Shown one piece after another: positions 42,868 to 49,058 of a DNA stretch of 64,000 nucleotides; the stretch's first letter is position 1, and each line of letters begins with the position of its first letter. The position numbers and the translations under genes were made by a program. The stretch covers positions 1 through 64,000 of the forward strand of contig JALXFN010000034.1 in NCBI GenBank assembly GCA_027068975.1, in the 5' to 3' direction. Below the pieces are notes generated by a model. The model worked only from the letters and a program-made list of their open reading frames with translations, searched no databases and was not told the origin of the DNA. The stretch is from Campylobacteraceae bacterium (GTDB lineage Bacteria > Campylobacterota > Campylobacteria > Campylobacterales > Sulfurovaceae).

Positions 42868-43818
42868 TTAACTTAACGGTATCATTTGTGGAATTTCTAG
42901 CCACGTACTTTTTGCAAGGTAAAGACCAATAAATGTCGTTACGGCTGCAAATTTCATCATTGTTCTGTTCTCTTCTTTTAAAGAACCCATTGCTATAAAG
43001 AATGGAATAATATATCCAAGAACCATTGCTGCCCAGAACTGTGTAAAGTACTCACCACCTGAATGAACATATGCCAATGTTGCTTCTACTTCTGCTGCTT
43101 TAAATGAGAAGAAATACTCTCCCATGTACATTATAAATGATAAAGCAACTGAAATTGCTAAGATTAAAGTTAAATCTCTTCTAGCTTCTGCAGACCATTT
43201 TTCTGAAATAAGAATTAATGAAGCAGAACCTACCATAAATGCTGCAAATAACATCTGTACTAACTCTGCAGGAGCTGCCCATAACTCTCTAGCACTCGCT
43301 TCTGCCATAATAATAGCTGTATACATAGTCACTGGTAAGGCTAAAACTACTACAAATGGGAAAACTTTTTCATACAATGCAGATTTTTCTCTAAGAGTTT
43401 TAACTATTCCAATATGACGACCAAAATCAGGGAAAGCATCTAAAGCTCCTATTGCTAACATTAATGTTACAAGTCCTGTAAAAATTGAAGCCATCCATGC
43501 TCCAACTGTAATTGCTGAAGTCCAGTGTGGGTGTAAGAAAATATTCACCATTCTTAACGGCTGGTGTAAATCTACTAAAGTAAAGAGTAAAAATACATTT
43601 AAAGCGATAAAAGAGATAAGAGGCATCATCCATCTAAGGTTAGGCATCTCCTCTTTTTTGTGTCTATAAAGTAAAAAAGCACCTACAAGTATAACACCTG
43701 TACCAATACTTTTCGCCCACATGTTAAGTGTAATCATCCAACCCCAGATTATTCCAGGAAGTGCAACATCAAGCGTTACAACTGCTTTGGTTGCTTCTAT
43801 AACTGTACCGTGATCCAT
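42868..43818 (-). CDS. NrfD/PsrC-type membrane anchor subunit
   Basis: A 316-residue integral membrane protein with about eight helices, of the NrfD/PolSulfR family. It binds menaquinone and exchanges electrons with the Fe-S subunit. DLHQPLRMVNIFLHPHWTSAITVGAWMAS is typical of the quinone-side region. Its ATG overlaps the Fe-S gene stop by one base (TAATG), and it is 10 bases ahead of the catalytic gene. Confidence 0.88.
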   Translation of the reverse strand: MDHGTVIEATKAVVTLDVALPGIIWGWMITLNMWAKSIGTGVILVGAFLLYRHKKEEMPNLRWMMPLISFIALNVFLLFTLVDLHQPLRMVNIFLHPHWTSAITVGAWMASIFTGLVTLMLAIGALDAFPDFGRHIGIVKTLREKSALYEKVFPFVVVLALPVTMYTAIIMAEASARELWAAPAELVQMLFAAFMVGSASLILISEKWSAEARRDLTLILAISVALSFIMYMGEYFFSFKAAEVEATLAYVHSGGEYFTQFWAAMVLGYIIPFFIAMGSLKEENRTMMKFAAVTTFIGLYLAKSTWLEIPQMIPLS

Positions 43819-44591
43819 TAGTGGTGTCCTCCTTCTTCATGAGATTCATGACTTTCGTCTGCATCATTTGGCATATCTATAAAACTTTCATTTTTCAAAT
43901 GGTCATTGTGTCCACCAAAAATTGGTGTTGTAAATCTATCTAAAATAGAGTGATGAGGGTCACCTATTGTATCTAAGTGTGTTATGTTATTAAACAATCC
44001 ATAACCTTCAATTCGCTCATGAGCTAAAGGATTAAGTGTCTGATTACCACCACCAACATAGTAATGTTTAGGATTGGTATGTTTTTCAGGTTTTCTTACT
44101 TGTACATCACCTTGATGCTCTGTAATGTATCTTGAGATATAAGATTTTTCATCCTCAACATCACCAAATATATTTGCTTCAACAGGACAAGCAACCACAC
44201 AAGCTGGCATCATACCACTCTCGATTCTATGAGCACAATAGGTACATTTATCAGCAGTATTTGACTCTGGATCCATATAGATTGCTCCATAAGGACATGC
44301 CATCATACACCCAGCACAACCAATACATCTTGAACTGTCAACATTTACGATTCCATTATCTAAATAATGTAATGCCGATACCGGACAAATTCGCTCACAT
44401 GGAGCATTTTCACAGTGATTACATCTTAATGGTGTAAACGAACGCGAGGTATCAGGGAATGTCCCTATATCTATGTATTTTACACGCAAACGCCAAGAGC
44501 TTAATGGCACTTCATTTTCAACTTTACAGGCAATCTCACACCCTTTACAACCCATGCAAAGGTTAAGATCGACTAAAAAACCTAATTTCAT
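43818..44591 (-). CDS. Four-cluster Fe-S electron transfer subunit
   Basis: A 257-residue PsrB/DmsB/TtrB-type subunit with four [4Fe-4S] clusters: CMGCKGCEIACK, CNHCENAPCERICP, CIGCAGCMMACP and CTYCAHR...CVVACP. It links the quinone-side anchor to the catalytic subunit. The His-rich C-terminal tail (DESHESHEEGGHH) is unusual. It lacks its own leader and probably travels with the catalytic subunit. First gene of the operon. Confidence 0.9.
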   Translation of the reverse strand: MKLGFLVDLNLCMGCKGCEIACKVENEVPLSSWRLRVKYIDIGTFPDTSRSFTPLRCNHCENAPCERICPVSALHYLDNGIVNVDSSRCIGCAGCMMACPYGAIYMDPESNTADKCTYCAHRIESGMMPACVVACPVEANIFGDVEDEKSYISRYITEHQGDVQVRKPEKHTNPKHYYVGGGNQTLNPLAHERIEGYGLFNNITHLDTIGDPHHSILDRFTTPIFGGHNDHLKNESFIDMPNDADESHESHEEGGHH

Positions 44592-44872
44592 GTTTCCTCC
44601 TCATTTTTATAATTATCATAAGTTATGATTATTTTAGTTAATAACCTAATTTATTAGAACAATAGTCTATAAAGTTTTTGGTTAATTGTTAATGATAATG
44701 TCAATAAAATCACATTTATGGACTTTAAGCCGTAACGGTGTGTAGTTTTTTCTACTGATGATTAGGAAAATTTTATTCTTTAATTACTTTTATTGATGAT
44801 TAAAACCAGATAGTTTTACTCCTATTTATAAAAGTTAGCTATACTTCTCAATATTTGATAAAGGATTAAACA
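44592..44872. promoter_or_regulatory. Divergent regulatory region of the molybdoenzyme operon
   Basis: A 281-base AT-rich gap between the divergent Fe-S subunit and DUF309 genes. A near-perfect palindrome ATCATAA-G-TTATGAT (44615-44629) lies about 25 bases ahead of the Fe-S gene start and could be an operator for a dimeric regulator. A TTAATGATAATG motif lies at about 44691-44702. The rest is AT-rich sequence without recognisable features. Confidence 0.45.
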
Positions 44873-45256
44873 ATGCTCAAAGAAAATCATGACTTAAAAG
44901 GAGCGTTAAAGAGTTATTTAACACTTCTAAAATCAGAAGATTATTTTGATGCTCATGAAGCCCTAGAGGAGGCATGGCATCCCCTACGAAAAACCAATCA
45001 CCCTCTTAAAAACTTAGTAAAAGGTCTTATTAACGGAGCTATTGCCTTTGAGCATATTAAACGAAATAGAGAAAATGCCTATGAAAAAGCATCTAAAGTT
45101 ATCAACTCTTTTGAACGACATAAACATTTACTTATAGAGGGGATTGAATATTTTGAGCTTTTTGAAGAGGCTTGTTTTGAAGTAGAGAAGTTGAAACAAA
45201 ATCTACTTCTTACAAAAATTCACCCAATGAAACCACCCGATATTCATCGCTCTTAA
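44873..45256 (+). CDS. DUF309 protein
   Basis: A 127-residue helical protein with the DUF309 signature DYFDAHEALEEAWHPLRKTNHPLKNLVKGLINGAIAFEHIKRNRENAY. The His and Glu of HExxE look like a metal site, but no activity is established for the family. Its last 47 bases overlap the 3' end of the convergent PIN gene. Confidence 0.8.
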   Translation: MLKENHDLKGALKSYLTLLKSEDYFDAHEALEEAWHPLRKTNHPLKNLVKGLINGAIAFEHIKRNRENAYEKASKVINSFERHKHLLIEGIEYFELFEEACFEVEKLKQNLLLTKIHPMKPPDIHRS

Positions 45257-45596
45257 ATCGGCTCAACCTATCATCATTAGTAACAAATAAATCAGCCTTA
45301 GCATATACAGACGAAGCCAACTGTACAGCATCAGGAGTTTTAATGTGATAATCAGCTCTAACTTTAGCAAAAAGAGAGGCTATTTCACTATTAAGTTCTA
45401 GCAATTCTATCTCTGAAAAAAAATCTTTATAAGTCTCAACCAAATCAAGGCGATTATCTTTATATGGTTTGGTTAAAATCTCTCCAAGTGTTAAGGTAGA
45501 GGTGATAACTTCATATCCATTCTCTTCTAAAAATTGCAACAGATTATGGACTTTGTTCAGATGTAGTTCATTCTCTTCAATGAGGTAGATAAACAA
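45210..45596 (-). CDS. PIN-domain toxin (VapC-like), probably start-broken
   Basis: The only in-frame start is TTG 45594-45596, which gives a protein lacking the first catalytic Asp. Just upstream in the same frame, ahead of the TTG, are codons for AFLDTNL, the normal PIN beginning, but they follow a stop. An ATG at 45626-45628, overlapping the antitoxin end, would read MSGKKAFLDTN if the run of five A (45615-45619 on the complement) had six. The rest is normal (STLTLGEILTKPY; TPDAVQLASSVYAKADLFVTNDDR). Either inactivated or slippage-dependent. Confidence 0.7.
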   Translation of the reverse strand: MFIYLIEENELHLNKVHNLLQFLEENGYEVITSTLTLGEILTKPYKDNRLDLVETYKDFFSEIELLELNSEIASLFAKVRADYHIKTPDAVQLASSVYAKADLFVTNDDRLSRFKSDEYRVVSLGEFL

Positions 45597-45617
45597 ATTG
45601 GTATCTAAAAATGCTTT

Positions 45618-45866
45618 TTACCACTCATCTCTTAACTCTTTTATATACGCATCAGAGTCTATACCTTGATATAGCTCTTTACCAATACCTTGTAAGCTTT
45701 TTATTTTGGCAATAGAATTTTTTTGATAAATTTCATCTCGTGGAGCAATGTTTTTATAGCCTTCTACTTCTTGTTTGATATTAAGCAAATTTTTTGGAAG
45801 ATTTTCAAGAAAAAACATAATATGAGAATAGATTGAACTATTTATTTCAAGAGTTACTTTATACAT
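45618..45866 (-). CDS. Antitoxin of the PIN pair
   Basis: An 82-residue protein just upstream of the PIN gene. The end DAYIKELRDEW is typical of antitoxins that thread into PIN toxins, and the front is short beta/helical (MYKVTLEINSSIYSHIMFFLENLP). No clear DNA-binding motif is seen. Its stop is immediately followed by the first PIN codons. The call rests mainly on position and size. Confidence 0.6.
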   Translation of the reverse strand: MYKVTLEINSSIYSHIMFFLENLPKNLLNIKQEVEGYKNIAPRDEIYQKNSIAKIKSLQGIGKELYQGIDSDAYIKELRDEW

Positions 45867-45983
45867 AATTGAAACTCCTTCTTTTTTGTCTTAGTATATC
45901 AAAAAAGGTTTAAATCTTATAAACCTGAGTTCAACGGAATACCATATCCACAATTTTACGAGGTTTTTCATAGGCAACAAATC

Positions 45984-46002
45984 CCCACTTTTATCAAGTG
46001 GG
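45984..46002 (-). terminator. Hairpin downstream of the RND gene
   Basis: CCCACTT (45984-45990) pairs with AAGTGGG (45996-46002) with a 5-base loop. It lies 9 bases past the RND stop codon in the efflux operon direction. Only a weak T-rich tail follows. Confidence 0.55.
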
Positions 46003-46010
46003 AACTCAAA

Positions 46011-49000
46011 CTACCTCCGATAAACCACCAAATACCCAACAGGCAAAACCAAAAGTGTCAACAGCGTAGAGCTAATAATTCCCCCAACAATCACCACAGA
46101 CAACGGATATTGAATTTCAGCCCCAACACCCGTAGCATAAAGCAGAGGTAAAATCCCAAACAGCGTGGTAAATGCCGTCATTAAAACAGGTCGTAAACGA
46201 AGAAGTGTTGCTTCTATAATCACCTCTTTTAGTGCTTTTTCAGGGTACTTCTCTCGCAATTCATCAATAAAAGATACTAAAACAATTCCATTGAGTATGG
46301 CAATAGCAAAGATGGCTAAAAAGCCAATAATAGCTGAAACAGAGAGGTAGATTTCTGAAATAATAAGAGCTACAATCCCACCCATTAACCCAAATGGTAC
46401 ATTCATAAGCACCAAAAGAGCCTTTTTCATGGAGTTAAAAGCTGTGTAGAGTAGAAGTAAAATCAGCATAATCGTCACAGGAATAATTATCATTAGTTTC
46501 TGCGTTGCCTCTTGCATATTTTTAAAATCTCCTGCCCACTCGATGTAGTAGCCTGATGGCATTTTGACTTTTTCTTTTATGCGTTCGTTGGCTTCGGCTA
46601 CAAGTGAGGCAACATCTCGCCCTTCGGTTTCAATTCCTAAGACCATATAACGGTTAAGATTTTGTCGTTTGATAAATGAAGCACCTTGTCGCACTTCGAT
46701 ATTACAGACATCTCTAAGCCTGACGATAGAGCCTTTTTCGGTGCGTAAGTTAATGTTTTTAAGCTCTTCAATCTCTTCTCTTGCATCTTTTAGTTTTGCT
46801 ACAATCCCAAACCGTTTAACCCCCTCTATCTTTTGGGTTATTGACTCCTCTCCAATCCCATTTCTAATAAACTGCATAATCTCCGAGACCTTTACACCAT
46901 ACCGTGCTAAGGCTTGATAGTTTGGACGGATAATAATATTGGCTTGACCCAATTGTGGTTCTACTTCGACCTCTTCAAGCCCCTCTAACCCCTCTAGTGC
47001 CTCTTGGATTTGTTTGGAGATTTTAGCCATAACCTTTTGCTCTTCTCCATAAATCTTAATGGCAAGTTCAGACTGAACCCCCTCTAAAAGCTCCTCTATT
47101 CTCATAGCAATGGGTTGTGTTGGTACAAAACGGACATGTTCAAAGGTGTGCGTAACATCTTTGGTAATCCTCTTGGTTAAGGCAGGTAAATCCTCAATAT
47201 TTGGCTTTAAGGTTAGAAGTACCTCCATGTAATTTGGCTGTGCTGTCTCTCCCTTTTCGCTTCGTCCTATCATACTTAAAACTGATTCTACATTAGAGGA
47301 GTAGTTTTTTAAGATATGTTTTTCTAGGTTTTGAGCTGTCTCAACCGATTGAGAAAGGGCAGTTCCAGGAGGAGCAATAACACGGAACATGATACTCTCT
47401 TCGTTAAGCGTTGGCATAAACTCTCGCCCTTGCAGGGTTAACTGATAGGCTAAAAAAGCAAATGCAATCATGACCGTCAGAAGTACAATTTTTGGAAGAT
47501 ACAATGCCCCTTTTAAAAAGGGAAGATAGACCCACTTAATCGCTCTCATTACTATATTTTCTTGAGATTTTTTAGGTTGTAAAAGAGCCAAAGCAAGAAC
47601 AGGTACAAGCACCAATGCCACCAACAACGAACCCAACATAACAAAGACAATATTCAGAGCCATTGGGCTATAGAGTTTTCCTGCCAAACCATCAAGACTA
47701 AGCAGAGGAATAAAGACAGCAACAATAATCAAAATAGCAAAAGTAGTTGGTGTCGCCACCTCTTTAGCTGAGTTTAAAATAAGCGTTGTTCGGTTTGCCG
47801 TTGGGTTTTCATTGAGGTGTCGATAGGCATTCTCTACCATTACAATCGTCCCATCAACTATCATACCTACAGCAATGGCTAAACCACTTAAACTCATAAG
47901 GTTTGCAGAGAGTCCAAAATATTCCATTAACCCAAATGCAATCAACAACGAAAGGGGTAGAGAGACAATGACAATAAACGCTGAACGAAGCTCAAAAAGA
48001 AATAGAAACAGCACAATAGCCACTAAAACAATCCCACTTTGCAGAGCAGAAGAGATGGTATTAACAGCCTTCTTGGTCATGGTGGTTCTGTCGTAAATAA
48101 GTTTTATCTCTACCCCACTTGGAAGTGAAGCGTTAACCTGCTCCATCTTCTTTTTTAAGCCCTCAACAACTCTGTTTGCATCGGTTCCTGTTCGTTGAAG
48201 CACCATACCCATAACCGACTCGTTACCATCAATGCTAATCGCTCCAAAACGAGGTGCTACTCCTTGTTTCACCGTTGCCACATCACCAATAAGAATGGCA
48301 CGACCTCCAAAAGATTTAACCACCGTTGAGCGAATATCATCAAGTGTTTGATAGAATCCAACCCCACGAATTTGGTACTGTTCACGGTTAAACTCTAGGT
48401 ATTGTCCACCTGCACTAATGTTTGAACTCTCTAGTGCGTCAACAATGTCACTATAGGTTACCCCTTTAGCTTGAAGTTTACGAGGCTCAATCACCACCTC
48501 ATACTGCTTCTCATAACCACCCCAAGAGATAACCTCTTCAACCCCAGAGACTGATTTAAACATCGGTTTTACAAAAAACTCTTGAAGCTCTCGTATCTCT
48601 TGAAGTGATTTTTTACCTGTAGTATCTTTAAGTTCATACCAAAAGACCTGCCCTAATCCTGTAGTATTTGGTCCAAGAGTTGGTTTGCCCCAACCGTTAG
48701 GAATATCTACCGATAAAATTCGCTCACTCACCTGCTGACGCAAAAAGTAGATGTCATAACTGTCTTCAAAAAAGACTGAAACATAAGAGAGTCCAAAAAT
48801 AGAGTTACTCATAATACTCTTAACCCCTGCCATACCTGAAAGAGCTGACTCGATAGGATAGGTAATGAGTTTTTCAATATCTTCAGCCGAATTTCCTGCA
48901 CTCTCTGTGTAGATGACTACCTGTTTAGGAGTAATATCGGGGAAAGCATCAATAGGTACATTTTGATAGGAGCGATAACCTAGAAAAGAGAGTACTATAA

Positions 49001-49058
49001 AAAGTACGATAACCAAGAGTTTGTACCTCAGAGAGAGGTCTATAATTTTATTTAACAT
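46011..49058 (-). CDS. Heavy-metal efflux RND transporter (CusA/CzcA family)
   Basis: A 1015-residue inner-membrane proton antiporter with the usual 12 helices and two large periplasmic loops. HME-RND signs: N-terminal PIDAFPDITPKQVVIYTESAG, RPNYQALARYGV, and helix 4 GMIVDGTIVMVENAYRHL with Asp and Glu. It pumps metal ions such as Cu+, Ag+, Zn2+ or Co2+ with the adaptor and outer-membrane genes just upstream. A near-identical fragment of its 3' end lies at 13199-13306. Confidence 0.93.
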   Translation of the reverse strand: MLNKIIDLSLRYKLLVIVLFIVLSFLGYRSYQNVPIDAFPDITPKQVVIYTESAGNSAEDIEKLITYPIESALSGMAGVKSIMSNSIFGLSYVSVFFEDSYDIYFLRQQVSERILSVDIPNGWGKPTLGPNTTGLGQVFWYELKDTTGKKSLQEIRELQEFFVKPMFKSVSGVEEVISWGGYEKQYEVVIEPRKLQAKGVTYSDIVDALESSNISAGGQYLEFNREQYQIRGVGFYQTLDDIRSTVVKSFGGRAILIGDVATVKQGVAPRFGAISIDGNESVMGMVLQRTGTDANRVVEGLKKKMEQVNASLPSGVEIKLIYDRTTMTKKAVNTISSALQSGIVLVAIVLFLFLFELRSAFIVIVSLPLSLLIAFGLMEYFGLSANLMSLSGLAIAVGMIVDGTIVMVENAYRHLNENPTANRTTLILNSAKEVATPTTFAILIIVAVFIPLLSLDGLAGKLYSPMALNIVFVMLGSLLVALVLVPVLALALLQPKKSQENIVMRAIKWVYLPFLKGALYLPKIVLLTVMIAFAFLAYQLTLQGREFMPTLNEESIMFRVIAPPGTALSQSVETAQNLEKHILKNYSSNVESVLSMIGRSEKGETAQPNYMEVLLTLKPNIEDLPALTKRITKDVTHTFEHVRFVPTQPIAMRIEELLEGVQSELAIKIYGEEQKVMAKISKQIQEALEGLEGLEEVEVEPQLGQANIIIRPNYQALARYGVKVSEIMQFIRNGIGEESITQKIEGVKRFGIVAKLKDAREEIEELKNINLRTEKGSIVRLRDVCNIEVRQGASFIKRQNLNRYMVLGIETEGRDVASLVAEANERIKEKVKMPSGYYIEWAGDFKNMQEATQKLMIIIPVTIMLILLLLYTAFNSMKKALLVLMNVPFGLMGGIVALIISEIYLSVSAIIGFLAIFAIAILNGIVLVSFIDELREKYPEKALKEVIIEATLLRLRPVLMTAFTTLFGILPLLYATGVGAEIQYPLSVVIVGGIISSTLLTLLVLPVGYLVVYRR

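Follow-up and report, generated by a model that had tools for sequence, protein, structure and literature searches.

The window, by which we mean the whole stretch of 64,000 nucleotides analysed here, carries a VapBC-like type II toxin-antitoxin islet, and its PIN toxin appears to have been inactivated recently, when a single base was lost from the A-run behind the antitoxin stop, a reading to which we give a probability of about 0.85. The window is contig C34 of a draft genome of 2.78 Mb in 146 contigs, and the nearest named records to this genome are Campylobacterota MAGs. The features of the region are given in Table 1.

Table 1. Features of the toxin-antitoxin region and its flanks (positions in the window).
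Feature	Position	Strand	Remarks
DUF309 gene; last 14 codons supplied, since the insertion, by the antisense of the toxin 3' end	44873..45256	+	
Toxin coding frame, GCA (Ala6 of the intact form) to stop; no usable in-frame start	45210..45614	-	PIN domain
Mechanical TTG ORF, 128 aa, without the first strand and Asp9	45210..45596	-	Strand E4-8 of the intact model missing
Putative acquired islet with the antitoxin-toxin pair	45215..46010	.	Absent at the same place in sister genome G024
First catalytic Asp codon (Asp9 in intact copies), not part of any ORF with a plausible start	45603..45605	-	Invariant in eight homologues
ATG of the ancestral toxin start (45628-45626), which overlaps the antitoxin end	45605..45628	-	Same overlapping ATG in L010, L011, L012 and L013
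Five-A run, one base shorter than the relatives' form	45615..45619	-	Comparison with relatives
Antitoxin gene, 82 aa, intact	45618..45866	-	ATG 45866, TAA 45620-45618
RND efflux gene (CusA/CzcA-like, family by reading the sequence), other islet flank	46011..49058	-	

The antitoxin ATG is preceded by the ribosome-binding site AAGGAG at 45880-45875, and the antitoxin frame closes on the minus strand as ...RDEW-TAA. Around this end the minus strand reads GAG TTA AGA GAT GAG TGG TAA AAA GCA TTT TTA GAT ACC AAT TTG; the toxin frame is the same as the antitoxin frame and resumes right behind the stop as AAA GCA TTT TTA GAT ACC AAT (K A F L D T N). In the register of the overlapping ATG, the same strand from 45630 down to 45597 reads AG ATG AGT GGT AAA AAG CAT TTT TAG AT ACC AAT, and the ATG at 45628 opens seven codons, MSGKKHF, before the TAG. 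The original prediction, that the LDTN codons of the toxin are present and severed by the antitoxin stop, was confirmed on the minus strand, and the span to which it was attached, 45210-45866, covers both genes, antitoxin and toxin, not the toxin only. The AFLDTN codons have no in-frame start before the TTG at 45596, which is the only later start and lies after LDTN. It is unlikely that this TTG is a real gene start. A functional shorter protein beginning there was considered and rejected, as it would be without the first strand and the catalytic Asp and no homologue begins at that position. Homologues starting at the TTG with no upstream Asp, the case which the prediction had set against itself, were not found, and all eight aligned homologues keep the N-terminal Asp. 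For annotators, the 128-aa TTG ORF is a warning, being not a working toxin.

Copies of the pair were looked for by a genus search, in species-representative genomes and then in 175 family and 399 order genomes, and four close relatives were obtained (L010, L011, L012 and L013). The nearest copy, L010 of the genome of Campylobacteraceae bacterium JALVXD (G023), is about 90-91% identical to the window copy, and the toxin proteins of the other three are 77-89% identical to that of G023. All four have one base more than the window, and in each the toxin begins with MSGK(K/L)AFLDTN at the corresponding ATG, which lies across the antitoxin end; this agreed with the expectation that one added A would join LDTN to an antitoxin-overlapping ATG in the normal arrangement. 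The toxin of G023 reads MSGKKAFLDTN, overlapping its antitoxin, because the run there is six As. Six As are found in three of the four (L010, L011 and L013), and L012, a locus of the same-family genome G154 (a Sulfurovum sp. MAG), is without an A-run at the overlap: its sequence is GGTAAACTGG, read as GGTAAACTGGCT with no long run. In the 175 family and 399 order genomes, the copies from three of the relatives' genomes were recovered a second time, along with one distant protein of 36% identity, and the shortened state was not found in them besides the window copy. In this comparison of sequences, the window copy is the outlier with one base deleted, and the A-run itself is not conserved. The last codon of the antitoxin and its TAA stop are unaltered by the deletion, since the remaining As preserve the stop. 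No relative was found in the viral contigs and phage records searched, and plasmid records gave only PIN proteins of 30-34% identity, from cyanobacteria.

The toxin frame matched the Pfam PIN domain PF01850 above the cut-off (E=1.4e-15). Across the eight aligned homologues, D9, E50, D100 and D119 of the intact forms are invariant; in the window, these conserved catalytic acids are not all in a translatable toxin, Asp9 being excluded, and the frameshift removes the first strand (residues 4-8) along with it. The AlphaFold model of an intact relative had a pLDDT of 92.5, and the structures that matched it best were VapC toxins of VapBC complexes, among them the D7A and D7N mutants of Shigella VapC (Foldseek E down to 3e-7). 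The active site of Haemophilus VapC1 holds D6 together with E43 and D99, and the mutants examined at these three residues and at T7 were defective in toxicity (PMC4229260). From the fold position and motif, D9 would correspond to D6 of Haemophilus VapC1 and D7 of Shigella VapC. The missing Asp9 matches the first catalytic acid of the VapC/PIN nucleases.

The toxin fold and the Pfam PIN domain are shared with the VapBC type II systems of Rickettsia felis (VapBC2, 3zvk), Klebsiella (7by2/7by3) and Shigella (3tnd), and in the intact relatives the likeness extends to the catalytic acids at the expected places and to the order of the genes, in which the antitoxin precedes a toxin whose start overlaps the antitoxin end. 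This overlapping two-gene operon is seen in the four close relatives and in several paralogous loci, and the window retains the order with the ATG out of frame. The window differs from VapBC in that its toxin cannot be started in frame and is without the first Asp, and in that no catalogued antitoxin family, VapB or other, matches its antitoxin. The antitoxin is 68-82% identical to its counterparts at the same position in the four relatives, and it gave no significant match in Pfam, NCBIfam, PADLOC or PDB. Its structure model was of low confidence and too uncertain for use.

Between the toxin frames of the window and L010, dN was 0.040 and dS 0.448, giving a dN/dS of about 0.09. The window branch carries 19 silent and 9 amino-acid changes, and the L010 branch 5 silent and 4 amino-acid changes (one of the four being a codon with two changes). 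By the low ratio and the otherwise whole frame, purifying selection acted on the toxin during most of the period after the two copies diverged, and the deletion is late; an old pseudogene was rejected on the same low dN/dS. The orthologues are intact, the lesion is unique to the window copy and the remaining frame is conserved, as in a pseudogene made by a recent frameshift. On the other side, the low dN/dS gives no hint that selection was relaxed, apart from a cluster of five amino-acid changes at the toxin C-terminus, which is a counterpoint to decay.

This undecayed frame would also be seen if the missing base were an error of sequencing or assembly and the toxin were intact in the living population. 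The site would be a homopolymer, and the data consist of one assembly without reads, in which a base-call error or a mixture within the population is conceivable. We therefore scanned the window genes for frameshifts against the loci of G024, G023 and G009, with the window only as the baseline; the scan is blind to indels in the first and last few codons of genes, and in its control all 8 simulated one-base deletions were picked up. In 135 ORF comparisons covering 50,678 unique bases, with 467 A/T runs of at least five, no other frameshift was found in the window. Among the sampled contig ends, exactly 127 bases were shared in two pairs, one of which joins the end of the window contig with the start of C65, and the other matches in this comparison were masked N stretches. 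Such sharing is characteristic of a short-read assembly with k=127, made with a de Bruijn assembler, and a five-A run is rarely miscounted in short-read assembly. The lack of another frameshift and this short-read mark make an assembly error improbable, and a systematic homopolymer error was rejected on both grounds; we consider that the deletion is probably not an artefact.

The original prediction left a choice between inactivation by a single deletion and slippage at the run that tunes toxin output. The former is favoured by the four intact relatives, with the window alone one base short, and the latter is not supported. In the tuning reading, a minus-one ribosomal shift on A-AAG or transcriptional slippage would yield a little full-length toxin; a minus-one shift at the AAG would restore MSGKKAFLDTN exactly, and the one lysine tRNA detected (most, not all, tRNAs being covered) has the anticodon TTT, which can slip on AAG. 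However, all four relatives are in direct frame and none is in the shortened state, and, as the intact L012 has no A-run, the family does not share a run at which to slip. The T-AAA-AAG context is an incomplete slippery heptamer, the downstream RNA structure is not marked (-5.9 kcal/mol over 60 nt), Rfam gave no match, and five As are short for polymerase slippage. Programmed minus-one frameshift genes, such as dnaX and those of IS elements, resemble the window in an A-rich run with AAG at which a shift would restore the product, but the window is without their conserved shifted arrangement, full heptamer or marked stimulatory structure. Programmed frameshifting is recognised by a conserved shift site and a stimulatory downstream RNA structure, and neither was observed here. 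A literature search on homopolymer slippage in toxin-antitoxin genes found nothing fitting. We thus regard it as very unlikely that slippage tunes this toxin, and it is just as doubtful that the shortened form gives trace full-length toxin by a minus-one shift on A-AAG just behind the start, leaving a constitutively damped toxin beside a full-strength antitoxin. It is still harder to believe that the run is a DNA-level phase-variable switch by which the toxin is turned on and off within the population. The one-base difference in run length between the window and three of the relatives would favour it, but L012 has no run, the 467 other A/T runs of at least five in the conserved genes of the window are without a frameshift, and five or six As make too short a run for hypermutability.

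The locus L025 of the sister genome G024 aligns to 43378-45214 and 46011-47233 of the window, with 23 bp between these parts compared with 796 bp in the window, and in G024 the DUF309 gene adjoins the RND efflux gene. From this alignment, the pair was most likely acquired as an islet; alternatively, G024 would have lost it cleanly. The islet junction lies at the toxin 3' end, and the DUF309 ORF overlaps the toxin by 47 bp (45210-45256). The DUF309 stop now lies within toxin codons, and the same antisense register would run 22 codons in L010 and 38 in L011. Five of the nine amino-acid changes of the window-branch toxin fall in the last 14 codons, the DUF309 overlap (binomial p about 0.001).

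In the inactivation that we favour, the pair would have been acquired between the DUF309 gene and the RND efflux gene, and one base would then have been lost from the A-run just behind the antitoxin stop. Ribosomes starting at the overlapping ATG would now stop after MSGKKHF, no full-length toxin with the first catalytic Asp would be made save for possible trace errors, and the antitoxin would persist as an orphan. Losing the toxin and keeping the antitoxin would be the harmless direction, as loss of the antitoxin first is expected to be lethal. A second, independent case supports this course of decay: G031 (L243 1501-2091) has an intact antitoxin that belongs to the same N-terminal family, and its PIN toxin is split into two frames, the frameshift coming after about 28 codons in comparison with L245 and L247. 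It was reported that Shigella YacB carries a frameshift with an intact antitoxin and that Caulobacter parE is a pseudogene (PMC7354431), and many orphan antitoxins were documented in Klebsiella (PMC7192599). In these degenerate loci the toxin was likewise lost by frameshift or pseudogenization and the antitoxin kept; the toxin family and the organism differ from ours, and the lesion of the window lies at the gene overlap with the antitoxin sequence untouched. The window case is ordinary recent gene decay, not a new way of controlling toxin output. With its known empty site, its one-base toxin loss at the overlap and its untouched antitoxin, it offers a clean example of the decay of a toxin-antitoxin islet.

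Other damaged relatives of the toxin were also encountered. An in-frame stop is present in L015 4953-5399 (Methanocalculus chunghsingensis) and an apparent frameshift in L018 4953-5398 (a Methanospirillaceae MAG), and L019 2680-2754 (a Campylobacteraceae MAG) is a short C-terminal remnant. The N-terminal half of the antitoxin (IYxHIMFFLENLPKNLLNI), which appears to be an uncatalogued module, recurs in 28 of the 175 family genomes, joined to unrelated C-terminal halves. In L249 1492-1719, an antitoxin of the same family is followed immediately, without an intervening toxin, by a gene that looks like DNA polymerase III alpha. The genes that follow this N-terminal half (L233-L251) include various PIN toxins, and that in L237 is, by eye, a RelE-like ORF.
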